This document shows positions 7,942-33,481 of a stretch of 57,373 nt of DNA, piece by piece. Positions within the stretch are counted from its first letter, which is position 1. Each line of letters starts with the position of its first letter. The notes beneath the pieces were generated by a model, which saw only the letters and a program-made list of their open reading frames with translations, was not told the DNA's origin and did no database searches. The stretch is from Tardiphaga robiniae. Its GTDB lineage: Bacteria; Pseudomonadota; Alphaproteobacteria; Rhizobiales; Xanthobacteraceae. Location of the stretch: positions 1 through 57,373 of the forward strand of contig NZ_LVYV01000013.1 of NCBI RefSeq assembly GCF_001618955.1, given 5' to 3'. The translations under genes were made by a program, and so were the position numbers.

Positions 7942-7973
7942 AGACCCGCTCGGGGGGACAACCGAGCGGGTCT
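7942..7973 (-). terminator. Terminator of the 86-aa exported protein gene
   Basis: AGACCCGCTCGG (7942-7953) and CCGAGCGGGTCT (7962-7973) form a perfect 12-bp stem with an 8-nt loop. Read on the minus strand the stem is followed by a T-rich tail, placing it as the terminator of the gene that ends at 8038. Confidence 0.8.
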
Positions 7974-8037
7974 GGTGCGACACGGGGTGGATGAGGCGCC
8001 CGTGTCGGACGCAAATCCACTTCAGTCGATCAAGGGA

Positions 8038-8298
8038 TTAGTAGTTGCAGGTCCGGACGCGGCCGACATAGTTGCCGTAGCCGTCATACTGGCGGACCCA
8101 GCCGCAGCGATATCCGTAGCCGTAGTAGCCGTTGTTGGCGGCAATGGCGCTACCGACGACGGCAGCGCCGACAACACCGGCAGCGATGCCGAAGCCGATG
8201 CCCGGGCCCTTGGCCTGAGCCTGCTGGGACGATGCCATGGTGCCGGCAGCCGTGAGAGCAACGAGAGCGAAAGCAGCAATCTTGGACTTGATCGACAT
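8038..8298 (-). CDS. Small exported Gly/Tyr-rich protein
   Basis: The 86-aa product starts with a clear Sec signal peptide (MSIKSKIAAFALVALTAAG, cleavage after AQA). A hydrophobic, glycine- and alanine-rich stretch follows, then a Tyr/Gly repeat (NNGYYGYGYRCG) and a C-terminal part with two cysteines. The start ATG 8298 is preceded by GGAG. Proteins of this build are common and uncharacterised in Bradyrhizobiaceae. The two cysteines could form a disulfide. It is monocistronic with its own terminator. No function can be assigned. Confidence 0.75.
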   Translation of the reverse strand: MSIKSKIAAFALVALTAAGTMASSQQAQAKGPGIGFGIAAGVVGAAVVGSAIAANNGYYGYGYRCGWVRQYDGYGNYVGRVRTCNY

Positions 8299-24731: not shown

Positions 24732-25109
24732 GCTGCGACTATAGCTGAAGCTGTCGACGAGGTGAGTGACCTGCGGTACGCATGATTTTAACGTGCGGGT
24801 AACCACGTCTGACGCTGGCGCTTTTTTTTGCGTCTGGGTTTGCCGGTCCTCCCGTTGCCACCGGCTCAGTCGTTTTATCAGCGTTTCGAGCCGCTTGCGT
24901 CTCTCACTTGGCGGGGATGATCGCGCGTGACCCGCTGATATCTAGAGATGGGCAATCATACGCCGACAGCTTTTGCCTGTTGTGAAGGCACTGGATGTGT
25001 ACAGGCACGCAGTGCAGACGGTAATCGTTGCTGCCGAACGGGCATTGATACCGTTTTTTCAGACACTTCTTGCACAGATTGTCATACGCGCGTTGCGAGT
25101 GGATCATTG
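24732..25109. other. Divergent intergenic region between mepA and the EAL protein gene
   Basis: This 378-bp gap should hold both promoters. It contains a T-tract (8 T near 24825) and is less GC-rich than its flanks. Frames on both strands here are cysteine-rich, but I cannot support either as a gene. Confidence 0.4.
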
Positions 25110-27344
25110 ATGCCGAAGTTCCGGCCCGAAGCGAAAAAGAAAGTGAAAGCCGGACTAGCGTCTCGGATCACCCGGCCGAGCCGGGCGATTGCGGCTGCTC
25201 CGAAATTGGCGCCAAAGAAGGGTCTCGTCAGCGGTCCCATCCGCGAGATCGTGCGACAGCGTGCCCAAGCCGAGGCGGCGATCGCGGAAGCCCGCAAATC
25301 CCATGAGCGTCTGCGTGAGGCGATCGACATCCTGCCGCAAGGCATCGTGTTTCTCGATTCCGACGGGCGCTACATCCTCTGGAACAAAAAGTACGCGGAA
25401 ATCTACAATCGCAGCTCGGATCAGTTCGTGCCGGGTGCGCGTCTGCAGGACACGATTCGCGTCGGTGTCGAGCGCGGCGATTATCCTGAAGCCATCGGGC
25501 GCGAGGACGAATGGATATCGGAGCGCGTCGCCAAGCTGTTCCATCCCGGCGAGCGCCACGAGCAGGTTCTGGCCGATGGCCGCGTTATCCTGATCGAAGA
25601 GCGGCTCACTGAAGATGGCGGCGTCGTCGGTCTGCGTGTCGACATCACCGAGCTGAAGCAGCGCGAGGCGTCGTTCCGCCTGCTGTTCGAGAGCAATCCG
25701 GTGCCGATGATCGTCTGTGCGCTTGATGACGAACGCATCCTCAGCGTCAACGACGCTGCAATCGAACATTACGGTTACACGCGTCCGGAATTCGAGAAGC
25801 TCACCATCCGCCAGTTGCAGGCCTTCGACGCCGCCCCGCCCTGGGTCGGCGATCATGCCAATGACGAGCAGGCCGCACGGACCTGGAAACACGTCAAGGC
25901 CGACGGCTCGCTGATCGATCTGGCGATCTATTCGCGGCACCTTGTTTACAACGAGGAGCCAGCCGTGATGCTGGCGCTGATGGATATCACGGAGCGCAAG
26001 CGTGCCGAGATGCGGCTGGCTTTCATGTCGCATCATGATGGTCTCACCGGCCTGCCGAATCGCAACCTGCTGCGTCAGCGTCTCGACGAGGTCCTCGCAC
26101 ATACGCGGCGCACCGGCGAGAAGGTTGCGGTGCTGTTTCTCGGCCTCGACAACTTCAAGGGCGTCAACGATACGCTCGGCCACGGTATCGGCGACAAGCT
26201 GCTGCGCGGCGTGGCGCGGCGGTTGCGGTCGTCGTTGCGCGAGGAAGACGCACTGGCGCGACTGAACTCCGACGAATTCGCCATCATCCAGACCGGCATC
26301 AACCGTCCCGAGGATGTCGTGTTGCTGGCGCGCCGGCTGCTCGACGCGGTCGGTGAGACCTATCTGCTCGACGGTCATTCGGTGGTCATCGGCGCCAGCA
26401 TCGGCATCGCGATGGCGCCGAGCGACGGCGACGAATCCGAGCGGTTGCTCAAGAACGCCGATATGGCACTGTCGCGGGCCAAGAACGACTCGCGCGGCAC
26501 CTTCAGCTTCTTCGAGTCCGGCATGGATGCCCGCGCGCAGGCGCGCCGCAAGATCGAAATCGATCTGCGCTCCGCCATTCAGGACGATCAGCTCCGGCCA
26601 TTCTACCAGCCGCTGATCGATCTCAAGACCGGCCGCATCACCGGCTGCGAGGCGCTGGTGCGCTGGCCGCATGCGGAGCGCGGCATGATTTCGCCGGCGG
26701 ATTTCATCCCCGTTGCGGAAGACACCGGCCTGATTAATGCGCTCGGCACGCAGATCCTGCGCCGCGCCTGCAACGAGGCTGCGCGCTGGCCCGATGAAGT
26801 GCGCGTCGCAGTCAATCTGTCGCCGCTGCAGTTCCGCGTTGGCAATCTGCTCTCGGTGGTGATGGATGCGCTGAAGCATTCCGGATTGCCGCCACGGCGG
26901 CTTGAACTGGAGATCACCGAGACGCTGCTACTGGAAAAGAGCAATCAGGTGCTGGCGACCCTGCACGCGCTGCGCGCACTCGGCGTGCGCATATCGATGG
27001 ACGATTTTGGCACCGGCTATTCGTCGCTGAGCTATCTCAGGAGCTTTCCGTTCGACAAGATCAAGATCGATCAGTCCTTCGTGCGCGATCTCGGCTCCAA
27101 TCGCGATGCGCAGGCGATCGTGCGTTCGATCATCAGCCTCGGCATGGGCCTCGGTGTCACCATCACCGCCGAAGGCGTCGAGACCGAATCCGAACTCGCC
27201 TGCCTGCGCAGCGAAGGCTGCCATGAAGGGCAGGGCTTCCTGTTCAGCCGCGCGCGACCGAACGAGGAGATCATCGAGCTGCTGCGCGCTCAGGCGATTG
27301 CTGCGCCGGACGCGGAACTGTCCGTCCGCGCGCAGGTCGCATAA
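25110..27344 (+). CDS. PAS-PAS-GGDEF-EAL protein, GGDEF degenerate
   Basis: The 744-aa product has a basic N terminus and a short coiled segment (about residues 46-70), then PAS domains at about 70-185 and 186-300, GGDEF at 305-470 and EAL at 483-735. The cyclase motif reads NSDEF (386-390), with both glycines replaced, so diguanylate cyclase activity is unlikely. The phosphodiesterase half keeps EAL at 514-516, EITET, DDFGTGYSS and AEGVE, and should hydrolyse c-di-GMP. No transmembrane helix is seen, so signals are probably sensed in the cytoplasm by the PAS domains. ATG 25110 is preferred; an upstream ATG at 24948 would add an atypical cysteine-rich leader. Confidence 0.9.
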   Translation: MPKFRPEAKKKVKAGLASRITRPSRAIAAAPKLAPKKGLVSGPIREIVRQRAQAEAAIAEARKSHERLREAIDILPQGIVFLDSDGRYILWNKKYAEIYNRSSDQFVPGARLQDTIRVGVERGDYPEAIGREDEWISERVAKLFHPGERHEQVLADGRVILIEERLTEDGGVVGLRVDITELKQREASFRLLFESNPVPMIVCALDDERILSVNDAAIEHYGYTRPEFEKLTIRQLQAFDAAPPWVGDHANDEQAARTWKHVKADGSLIDLAIYSRHLVYNEEPAVMLALMDITERKRAEMRLAFMSHHDGLTGLPNRNLLRQRLDEVLAHTRRTGEKVAVLFLGLDNFKGVNDTLGHGIGDKLLRGVARRLRSSLREEDALARLNSDEFAIIQTGINRPEDVVLLARRLLDAVGETYLLDGHSVVIGASIGIAMAPSDGDESERLLKNADMALSRAKNDSRGTFSFFESGMDARAQARRKIEIDLRSAIQDDQLRPFYQPLIDLKTGRITGCEALVRWPHAERGMISPADFIPVAEDTGLINALGTQILRRACNEAARWPDEVRVAVNLSPLQFRVGNLLSVVMDALKHSGLPPRRLELEITETLLLEKSNQVLATLHALRALGVRISMDDFGTGYSSLSYLRSFPFDKIKIDQSFVRDLGSNRDAQAIVRSIISLGMGLGVTITAEGVETESELACLRSEGCHEGQGFLFSRARPNEEIIELLRAQAIAAPDAELSVRAQVA

Positions 27345-27398
27345 GGCACGCGCCGATCTCCGCTTCGGCGAGGGCGCGGACGACCCTTCATCCCGTTT

Positions 27399-27585
27399 CC
27401 CATTGCGAGAATGGAGCGCCGGGAGGCGCCAGGGGCTTGCGAGACCCCTTGAGGCTGGCCTTGCGAGGGCCGGCCCGCACGTCAGCACCGGCGGGATTGC
27501 GAGTCCCGCAGGGAAGACGCACGCGTTACGACATCGGTGGGGGTGCGAAGCCCGCCGAGCGAACGCTGCGCCTCCCGGCGCTCCA
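27399..27585. repeat. Multi-branched hairpin element with recurrent TTGCGAG loops (possible structured RNA)
   Basis: An outer stem of 18 bp pairs 27412-27429 with 27568-27585 (TGGAGCGCCGGGAGGCGC and its exact complement). Inside lie four hairpins. The stem 27431-27435/27445-27449 has a C-TTGCGAG-A loop. The stem 27453-27460/27468-27475 has loop TTGCGAG. The stem 27491-27496/27504-27509 has loop TTGCGAG. The stem 27535-27541/27551-27557 has loop GGTGCGAAG. A fifth, CCATT-GCGAG-AATGG, sits just outside at 27400-27414. Equal loops on different stems imply a conserved element, either an RNA or a palindromic repeat family. Strand is undetermined. Confidence 0.6.
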
Positions 27586-27656
27586 CCAGCAGCTGCCCGG
27601 ATGACCGGGTCACCGCTGCAGTCTGATCGATGCTGTGTGTCATGAGCACGCAGCAA

Positions 27657-27700
27657 CCGATCAGGCTTCAGCGACAATACACCGATCTAGGATTAAAGTC
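27657..27700 (+). repeat. 44-bp direct repeat, copy A
   Basis: It matches 33400-33443 at 41 of 44 positions in the same orientation; the shared core includes CAATACACCGATCTAGGA. Similarity stops at both ends of the 44-mer. The two copies bracket the LysR/ABC/M20/ureohydrolase module. Confidence 0.85.
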
Positions 27701-27826
27701 AATTATGCCAAGGGGCCCTGCAGCAGAGCGATCCAAGTCGCCGGCCTTTAGGCCACGCGAATGCCCCTTCGCGGCGTAAAGCGGACCTTAATCCGCAGCC
27801 GGCGTGAAAGGTGGCTGTAGTCTCAT

Positions 27827-28735
27827 TCAGGATTGGGCAACGTGTGGCGCCGTGTAGTCATCGAGCAGTTTCGCGAACTGTTTGGCAAGCACGCTGAGTT
27901 CACCGAGATTAGGCTTCAGCAGGCCCACTTCGTAGAAAACTGACGGCGAAAAGGGCCGGATGACCAGCGCGCTGGTATCGCCGATCCGTCTCAGCGTGTC
28001 GGAAATGCTGAGGGCATCCACCAGGCAGATGCCGGCACCCGCGATGACGAGATTGAGTGCAATGGCAAAGAACTCGCATTCGATGGCGGGGTGAAACGGC
28101 GTATTGCTGGCCTCGAAGGCGCGCGAAATTGCCGCGTAAGACGTTCGGCTCCCCGAGGTAATGATGAGGTCGCTCCCCTCGAGCAGGTCGGGGGTGAGTG
28201 TTTCATGGGCAGTCAGTGCGTGGGTCGCGGGCAACACACATTGCAACGCGAAGCGGTAGCGCTTCAGCACCGTGTTCGTCCGGTCGAACGGCGGTTCGGC
28301 AATGCCGACGTCGAAGGCCCGCGATGACACCAGACTGCGGACATTGTCCGAGCTGCGGGTGAGCAATCTGATTTTGGTGTCGGGGCGGTCCCGTCGGAAG
28401 CGGCTGATGATTTCCGGGAGCCAGACGATGCCGGGGCCAGGGCTGCTCGCGACCGTCAGGACGCCGCGCTGGCCGGCGGAGATGCCCGCAGCCGCATCCT
28501 CCAATTCGGCAAATCCTGCAAGGGCATGAAGGGCTTCTTGGTGCAGCAGTTGGGCTTCGACTGTTGGCACGATGTGTCGGCTTTCGCGCCGAAACAGCAC
28601 GAAGCCGACATTCTGCTCCAGGCGCTTAAGCGCTGCGCTGACGGCCGGCTGCGAGACGCCGAGCGTGCGCGCGGCCTCGGTGACTGACCGATGCTGCATG
28701 ACCGCGTTGAAAATCTCGATAAGCCTCAAATCCAT
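27827..28735 (-). CDS. LysR family transcriptional regulator
   Basis: The 302-aa protein has an N-terminal winged helix-turn-helix ([25 protein letters not shown], about residues 16-40) and a C-terminal periplasmic-binding-like effector domain (about 90-290). It is divergent from the amino-acid ABC importer with a 130-bp AT-rich gap, the standard layout for a LysR regulator that controls its neighbour in response to the imported ligand or a product. The effector is likely an amino acid or guanidino compound, by context only. Confidence 0.92.
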
Positions 28736-33304: not shown

Positions 33305-33399
33305 AACTTCGCCCCCCACAAGCTGCTATCGCCCAGGAAGGCGAACGATCCATGGCCGCCGTGGCACTAGGGCGCCCGAAAGCCGGGCCGCTGCTGCCA

Positions 33400-33443
33400 C
33401 CGAACAGGCTTCAGCGGCAATACACCGATCTAGGACTAAAGTC
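33400..33443 (+). repeat. 44-bp direct repeat, copy B
   Basis: Copy B of the repeat at 27657-27700, same orientation, differing at three positions. Its 3' end contains the small dyad GACTAAAGTC, which is imperfect in copy A. It sits in the gap between the convergent ureohydrolase and Bug-type binding-protein genes. Confidence 0.85.
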
Positions 33444-33481
33444 TGAGCATGGCCCGGATCGTCCCGTATGCGGAAGATTCC

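Follow-up and report, generated by a model that had tools for sequence, protein, structure and literature searches.

Architecture of the element

The window, as the whole analysed stretch of 57,373 nt from Tardiphaga robiniae contig NZ_LVYV01000013.1 is called here, contains an element situated between a GGDEF/EAL gene and a LysR gene. At its centre lies an inverted repeat with arms of 18 nt (27412–27429 and 27568–27585) that are 100% complementary, together with the sequence TTGCGAG at 27403, 27437, 27461 and 27497 and GTGCGAA at 27543–27549. The initial annotation had reported this perfect 18-bp closing stem, TTGCGAG loops in three inner hairpins, GTGCGAA in a fourth and GCGAG in a fifth hairpin outside the stem, all of which were located. 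The count of TTGCGAG in the window is not unusual (11 observed versus 13.6 expected); the unusual feature is its placement in hairpin loops. As first drawn, the element had real hairpins and loops, but its extent was too short and the coding strand was missed; what it captured is the central part of a longer RNA gene, which is predicted to span approximately 27346–27667 with a promoter reaching to 27702. The features of the locus are as follows.

24948–27344, plus strand: gene read as GGDEF/EAL from its protein, flanking the element and convergent with it
27346–27667, minus strand: predicted noncoding RNA of approximately 322 nt, both ends inferred
27359–27387, minus strand: possible H-type pseudoknot, AGGGU/GCCCU and UCCGC/GCGGA (geometry in the window copy)
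27398–27410, minus strand: small hairpin 3′ of the closing stem, loop CUCGC, the fifth hairpin mentioned above (fold)
27411–27429, minus strand: closing stem, 3′ arm (complementarity, alignment, covariation)
27431–27449, minus strand: hairpin H4, loop CUCGCAA at 27437–27443 (fold, loop table, covariation)
27452–27476, minus strand: hairpin H3, loop CUCGCAA at 27461–27467 (fold, loop table, covariation)
27477–27522, minus strand: hairpin H2, loop CUCGCAA at 27497–27503 (fold, loop table, covariation)
27523–27566, minus strand: hairpin H1, loop CUUCGCACC at 27542–27550 (fold, loop table, covariation)
27568–27586, minus strand: closing stem, 5′ arm, GUGGAGCGCCGGGAGGCGC (complementarity, alignment, covariation)
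27587–27618, minus strand: second 5′ hairpin, tip CCCGG-UCAU-CCGGG (fold only)
27623–27666, minus strand: 5′ hairpin, tip with self-complementary UCAUGA at 27640–27645, proposed kissing loop (comparison and fold)
27674–27702, minus strand: sigma70-like promoter, −35 TTGACT (27697–27702), 17-nt spacer, −10 TATTGT (27674–27679) (motif scan and relatives)
27827–28735, minus strand: LysR gene, the other flank of the element

Along the minus strand, the parts follow one another as promoter, UCAUGA hairpin, second hairpin, closing stem, four loop hairpins, closing stem, small hairpin and possible pseudoknot. The predicted 3′ end of the RNA (27346), which abuts the stop codon of the convergent GGDEF/EAL gene, was set by a weak match to model R2, with the 3′ domain of the window copy scoring 13 bits. 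The unknotted fold of the full predicted RNA pairs 27359–27387 differently from the pseudoknot. Elsewhere in the window, a second copy of the promoter and the first ~20 nt of the RNA occurs at 33393–33446 on the minus strand, with CAATACACCGATCTAGGAYTAAAG at 33418–33441; the rest of the element is not evident there, and this may be the remnant of a truncated copy.

Folding, strand and coding potential

Positions 27380–27630 fold at z = −5.0 on both strands, with 0 of 200 dinucleotide shuffles as stable, and the full predicted 322-nt RNA at z = −5.95 (0 of 100 shuffles as stable). That the plus strand folds equally well favours an alternative in which the RNA is made from that strand and displays UUGCGAG loops. 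The strand asymmetry of G-U versus A-C, at first 66 versus 14, was lost (7 versus 8) when pairs predicted on both strands were used, and G-U pairs therefore fail to separate the strands. The promoter-like sequence, however, lies on the minus strand of the window, where one sigma70-like promoter was found versus a mean of 0.1 in shuffles, and the block TTGACT..A.TCC is present at the same place in six relatives within the genus. For the wider family, 86 distinct copies were oriented without using the promoter. At least 9 of 12 promoter matches were present upstream in 28 of these, whereas the opposite strand reached this level in 2 of 86 and shuffles did so in 22 of 430; the same comparison for TTGAC gave 58 versus 13. 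At the window locus the core model, itself built on the minus strand, scored 156 bits on the minus strand versus 33 on the plus. Judged from these comparisons the sense strand is most probably the minus strand, and a plus-strand RNA is very improbable.

No intrinsic terminator was found at 27200–27900. Reading frames from a shared ATG were compared in six sequences including the window; only those of the window and G003 are alike. The frame is shifted in the others, so the stretch is not coding and a protein-coding gene was ruled out.

Covariation of the core, closing stem and pseudoknot

The initial annotation had proposed a selected RNA structure with conserved loops and named covariation as a check, and the proposal is supported by both homology and covariation. 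A sequence-only alignment (A4) took 25 of 31 prepared cores, leaving out 6, and changes on both sides were found in 18 of 52 pairs. The covariation score was 0.267; shuffled controls gave 0.136 (0 of 500) and slid ones no more than 0.101. Controls were lower on every measure, with the structure having been predicted from the same alignment that was used for the test.

The closing stem appeared invariant among copies found by its own sequence, an effect attributed to the bias of searching with that sequence. Paired arms were present in 88 of the 119 stretches from this arm-sequence search, and no paired second arm was present in 24 of the 80 stretches listed out of those 119. Loci were also chosen via matches to the 3′ domain; 20 stretches were fetched, of which L316 was too short and 19 were analysed. 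A closing stem of at least 12 bp lay just upstream in 12 of the 19 versus 4 of 95 shuffles, with several different sequences among the 12 and pairing kept. Six of the 19 were without an arm of at least 9 bp, one of the six being cut by a contig end.

The pseudoknot was evaluated in relatives, using an alignment (A6) of 33 of 45 prepared 3′ domains that does not include the window copy; the 12 left out include all of the Afipia/Tardiphaga type. The pseudoknot was supported on four of five measures, with 92.1% of cells paired versus 75.6% and a score of 0.412 versus 0.140 (0 of 500), on a structure read from the tested sequences themselves. Pairs changed on both sides were not above shuffles (5 versus 4.5). 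A geometric pseudoknot finder, run after 7 loci had been dropped (5 duplicates and 2 of doubtful orientation), gave a score of at least 20 in 93% of 72 copies and in 55% of 360 shuffles. Because this background is high in GC-rich shuffles, the alignment test was relied on.

A very long perfect stem might also belong to a palindromic DNA element, such as a cruciform, nucleoid or protein site, that has no functional RNA. Duplex DNA would likewise keep complementarity, which is consistent with the outcome of the G-U test. The conserved loops, the pseudoknot, the placement of the promoter and the fixed order of domains nevertheless fit RNA, and a purely DNA-level role is highly unlikely. Comparison of the copies, as far as such a comparison carries, demonstrates structure, covariation, mostly constant loops and a promoter-strand bias for an RNA family. 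That the structured RNA gene is real is very probable.

A repeated loop motif within changing stems

In the window copy the minus-strand loops comprise CUUCGCACC followed by CUCGCAA three times. Within the folds of 76 distinct cores, CUCGCAA was found 105 times, GAUCGCAA 26 times and CCUCGCAAA 22 times, on stems that differ. The sequence UCGCA is thus mostly kept in the loops while the stems change. Certain lineages carry UACGUCAYU, GUAA or CGAU in place of the YUCGCAA loops, and in a distant copy of G016 the stems are replaced and only the last two of the four loops keep the motif. These replacements, together with the loops of G016, fit poorly with one fixed partner everywhere. That the YUCGCAA loops serve as decoy sites for a putative partner is a tentative proposal, which we hold to be possible rather than probable. 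The complement of the loop, UUGCGA, is absent from one 16S rRNA gene of this genome.

A match to the chrB-a RNA motif at 27427–27463 on the plus strand scored 16.5 bits against a threshold of 43.9 and is probably due to chance. The chrB-a consensus hairpin likewise has a loop containing UUGCGA, a curious likeness.

Palindromic loops in the 5′ hairpin

To the 5′ side of the closing stem, many copies carry a hairpin around a 6-nt palindrome. In the last 130 nt before the closing stem, and with 5 duplicates dropped, such a hairpin with a stem of at least 5 was found in 36 of 77 copies, compared with a mean of 5.25 and a maximum of 11 over 40 rounds of shuffling; at a stem of at least 4 the count was 45 of 77. 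A first version of this test was uninformative (13 of 84 versus 9 of 87), and a count of 71 of 82 made without a control was set aside. Eleven different palindromes were seen, namely UCAUGA, CUCGAG, CGAUCG, UCUAGA, CUUAAG, AUGCAU and five others, and paralogues within one MAG (JAKFYI01) carry different ones. The window copy, with UCAUGA, fails the automatic test owing to a mismatch near the hairpin loop; its relatives G012 and G013 pass.

A cryo-EM study of OLE RNA took switching between palindromes to support a kissing-loop contact between molecules (PMC12286853, in the text available). The pattern seen here supports homodimerization via the 5′ loop, albeit at the level of sequence. Self-pairing through the palindromic loop may be regarded as evenly balanced, an estimate lowered from slightly better than even because the hairpin of the window copy did not pass the automatic test.

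Distribution and copy number

A genome-wide copy count, suggested in the initial annotation, returned one full-length DNA match, the window copy itself, which therefore looks single. The core model gave two matches in this genome, with that of the window being the one among the matches listed; such counts include both strands of strong loci. Within the genus sample, a DNA match was present in 9 of 18 genomes including this one, two of the nine having short matches only, and the other 9 were without a DNA match. Around the two neighbouring genes, no convincing core match was present at 13 of 19 loci from 12 genomes, at least 2 of which carry the RNA elsewhere, and within the genus the window copy does not occupy a conserved position. 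The patchy presence and the loci without a convincing core match indicate that the RNA is dispensable. In the copy of G007 the 5′ arm is lost.

When the GTDB family was searched at the DNA level, 143 of 391 genomes and 32 of 47 genera had matches at E ≤0.01, many of them weak. With the core model, matches were obtained in 3 of 397 genomes at the level of the order and 1 of 289 at that of the class, all in the same GTDB family; as these searches scored 6–9 candidates per genome, absence outside the family is weakly indicated. The 3′-domain model matched 17 of 41 genomes and 16 of 40 genera, with up to 21 matches per genome and 18 in this one, and had no match in the single genome of genus g25, which we take to be Bradyrhizobium. 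In another search a 3′-domain model gave 4–37 matches in 15 distinct genomes, two having been counted twice (G204 = G1056 and G196 = G1057). E-values of models R1 and R2 are rough. Records with family members are also titled Pseudolabrys, Rhodoplanes and others. The arm pattern had no exact match in viral contigs, and the window stretch had no plasmid match.

The copies examined in this genome (15 fetched, L235–L249) belong to a relative of 530 nt (e.g. L238:312–839) that has a promoter of its own and a different closing stem. Copies spanning most of this relative were counted from a match listing in which flank and split matches add to the totals; they number 28 for G015, a complete genome, 4 (partly) for G001 and 2 for G006. 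Among the 15 copies, 11 have a flank in common with one of 21 G015 copies, the criterion being at least 90% identity across 260 nt or more on one side or both, which indicates that these sites are old. Several copies of the 530-nt relative lie at contig ends and may have broken the assembly.

This distribution brings in the main rival explanation, that of a selfish dispersed RNA repeat whose structure serves its own amplification, for example by mobilization in trans, and brings the cell no benefit. The widely varying copy number of both the 3′-domain matches and the 530-nt relative is in keeping with such a repeat, as are the unconserved position of the window copy, the want of a shared neighbour gene (see below) and the G007 copy without its 5′ arm. 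Set against it are the old sites of the 530-nt relative, the promoters that are kept, the LexA-type boxes kept in one MAG and an unsystematic look in which no terminal repeats or mobility gene were noticed. A selfish repeat is the less favoured reading, unlikely although deserving of serious weight. Of the possibilities raised in the initial annotation, a complex palindromic repeat holds in part for the wider family, since relatives with the 3′ domain are dispersed in many copies; the window copy looks single. The relatives whose structure was examined mostly keep the promoter and paired stems.

Neighbouring genes, LexA-type boxes and boxA-like tails

No neighbour gene is shared among copies, the commonest Pfam family being present in 3 of 83 chosen neighbours. 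LexA-type boxes, defined as GTTC-N7-GTTC or GAAC-N7-GAAC within 220 nt upstream, were found in 9 of 11 copies of one Xanthobacteraceae MAG (JAIESI01; L069, L079, L081, L094, L126, L136, L150, L168 and L170) versus 3 of 74 other copies; by eye, none is present in the window promoter. GTTC-N7-GTTC is the LexA motif of alpha-proteobacteria according to the available text of PMC3323433. The boxes suggest, from their sequence and placement, SOS-controlled noncoding RNAs in that MAG.

Some family members end in GGCTGTTTGACA..TTGAATC tails that are very like the rRNA leaders of this genome (GGGCTGTTTGACAAG; L306 and L307), in which we take the GGGCTGTTTGACAAG stretch to be boxA. The resemblance favours a cis-acting leader or antitermination element, in which the structured RNA and an rrn-like boxA would modify RNA polymerase for downstream transcription; boxA with Nus factors has been proposed to prevent Rho termination (PMC4807359, in the text available). 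However, only 11 of 83 copies have TGTTTGA in the 160 nt downstream, and genes downstream of the copies are in both orientations, with the next gene in the window being convergent. A leader of this kind is improbable for the family, and for the window copy an rrn-type leader identified by boxA was rejected, TGTTTGA being absent.

A proposed self-pairing scaffold or decoy

The best explanation for the element is a stand-alone, trans-acting structured noncoding RNA that serves as a self-pairing multivalent scaffold or decoy, although taken as a whole we place this a little below an even chance. The RNA would be transcribed on the minus strand from its own sigma70-type promoter and would fold into a highly stable platform, with a ring of hairpins closed by a long stem and a pseudoknot capping the 3′ side. 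Two RNA molecules would be joined by base pairing between the self-complementary loops of their 5′ hairpins. Each molecule would offer its YUCGCAA loops several times to one partner, probably an RNA-binding protein, and would sequester that partner in the manner of a multivalent scaffold or decoy. Of these steps, expression, the partner and its sequestration are those that we infer. A plus-strand reading, a coding frame, a DNA palindrome, a boxA leader, Rfam families and an omega RNA are all ranked lower.

The window RNA apparently belongs to an undescribed superfamily of structured RNAs in the GTDB family to which Tardiphaga and Afipia are assigned. A more far-reaching and rather doubtful extension is that this superfamily consists of promoter-driven, self-dimerizing RNAs, amplified in some soil bacteria to dozens of loci and in at least one lineage brought under LexA control, with paralogues whose different palindromes form separate homodimers and whose identical loop arrays address a common partner.

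Only a small number of large, structured bacterial RNAs of unassigned function are known, and any further example that shows clear covariation offers a means of testing ideas on RNA structure and self-assembly. The present family combines compactness with a wealth of natural variants, including paralogues in one MAG with different palindromic loops, such that homodimer specificity, the binding of loops to a partner and SOS control become direct laboratory questions.

Comparison with known systems

A scan of the window with Rfam 15 at gathering thresholds gave Rhizobiales-2 as the only match, located outside the element. This Rhizobiales-2 RNA (RF01723) lies at 7943–8040 on the minus strand, with 60.3 bits. 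A permissive scan of the element gave five matches far below threshold, and scans of 14 relative loci gave none at threshold. Within the literature searched, a limited set judged by titles and the starts of abstracts, such an RNA is not described.

Dispersed palindromic or multi-copy transcribed elements are found in related bacteria as Br-REP1, Br-REP2 and the BjsR sRNAs of Bradyrhizobium (PMC5082802, in the text available). This source, the closest account in that literature, reports palindromic repeats and sRNAs that are apparently other than the present element; the printed Br-REP consensus sequences were not seen in the element by eye. The HEARO/omega RNAs of IscB-TnpB elements are likewise structured RNAs dispersed in genomes. 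The element and its relatives, however, have no HEARO match in the Rfam scans, and this candidate was rejected; in the set of 83 neighbours, the 25 most frequent of 76 families include neither a nuclease nor a transposase.

Sponge RNAs of the CsrB/RsmZ type carry repeated GGA loops by which they bind and titrate a protein. The element resembles them in having several hairpins with one repeated loop motif and no coding frame. It differs in that its loop is YUCGCAA and not GGA, in its long closing stem and pseudoknot and in the lack of an intrinsic terminator noted above, and a sponge acting by repeated GGA loops was rejected from the loop table.

OLE, GOLLD and ROOL offer a further comparison. 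The element has no homology to their Rfam models, and the window RNA is, at ~320 nt, a molecule with repeated YUCGCAA loops whose relatives are multi-copy within a genome. Homo-oligomers are an experimental hallmark of those RNAs; for the present family a sequence signature of self-pairing was seen. The likeness lies in a multi-helix RNA and in loops that switch between palindromes, as in L9.3 of OLE (PMC12286853, in the text available).
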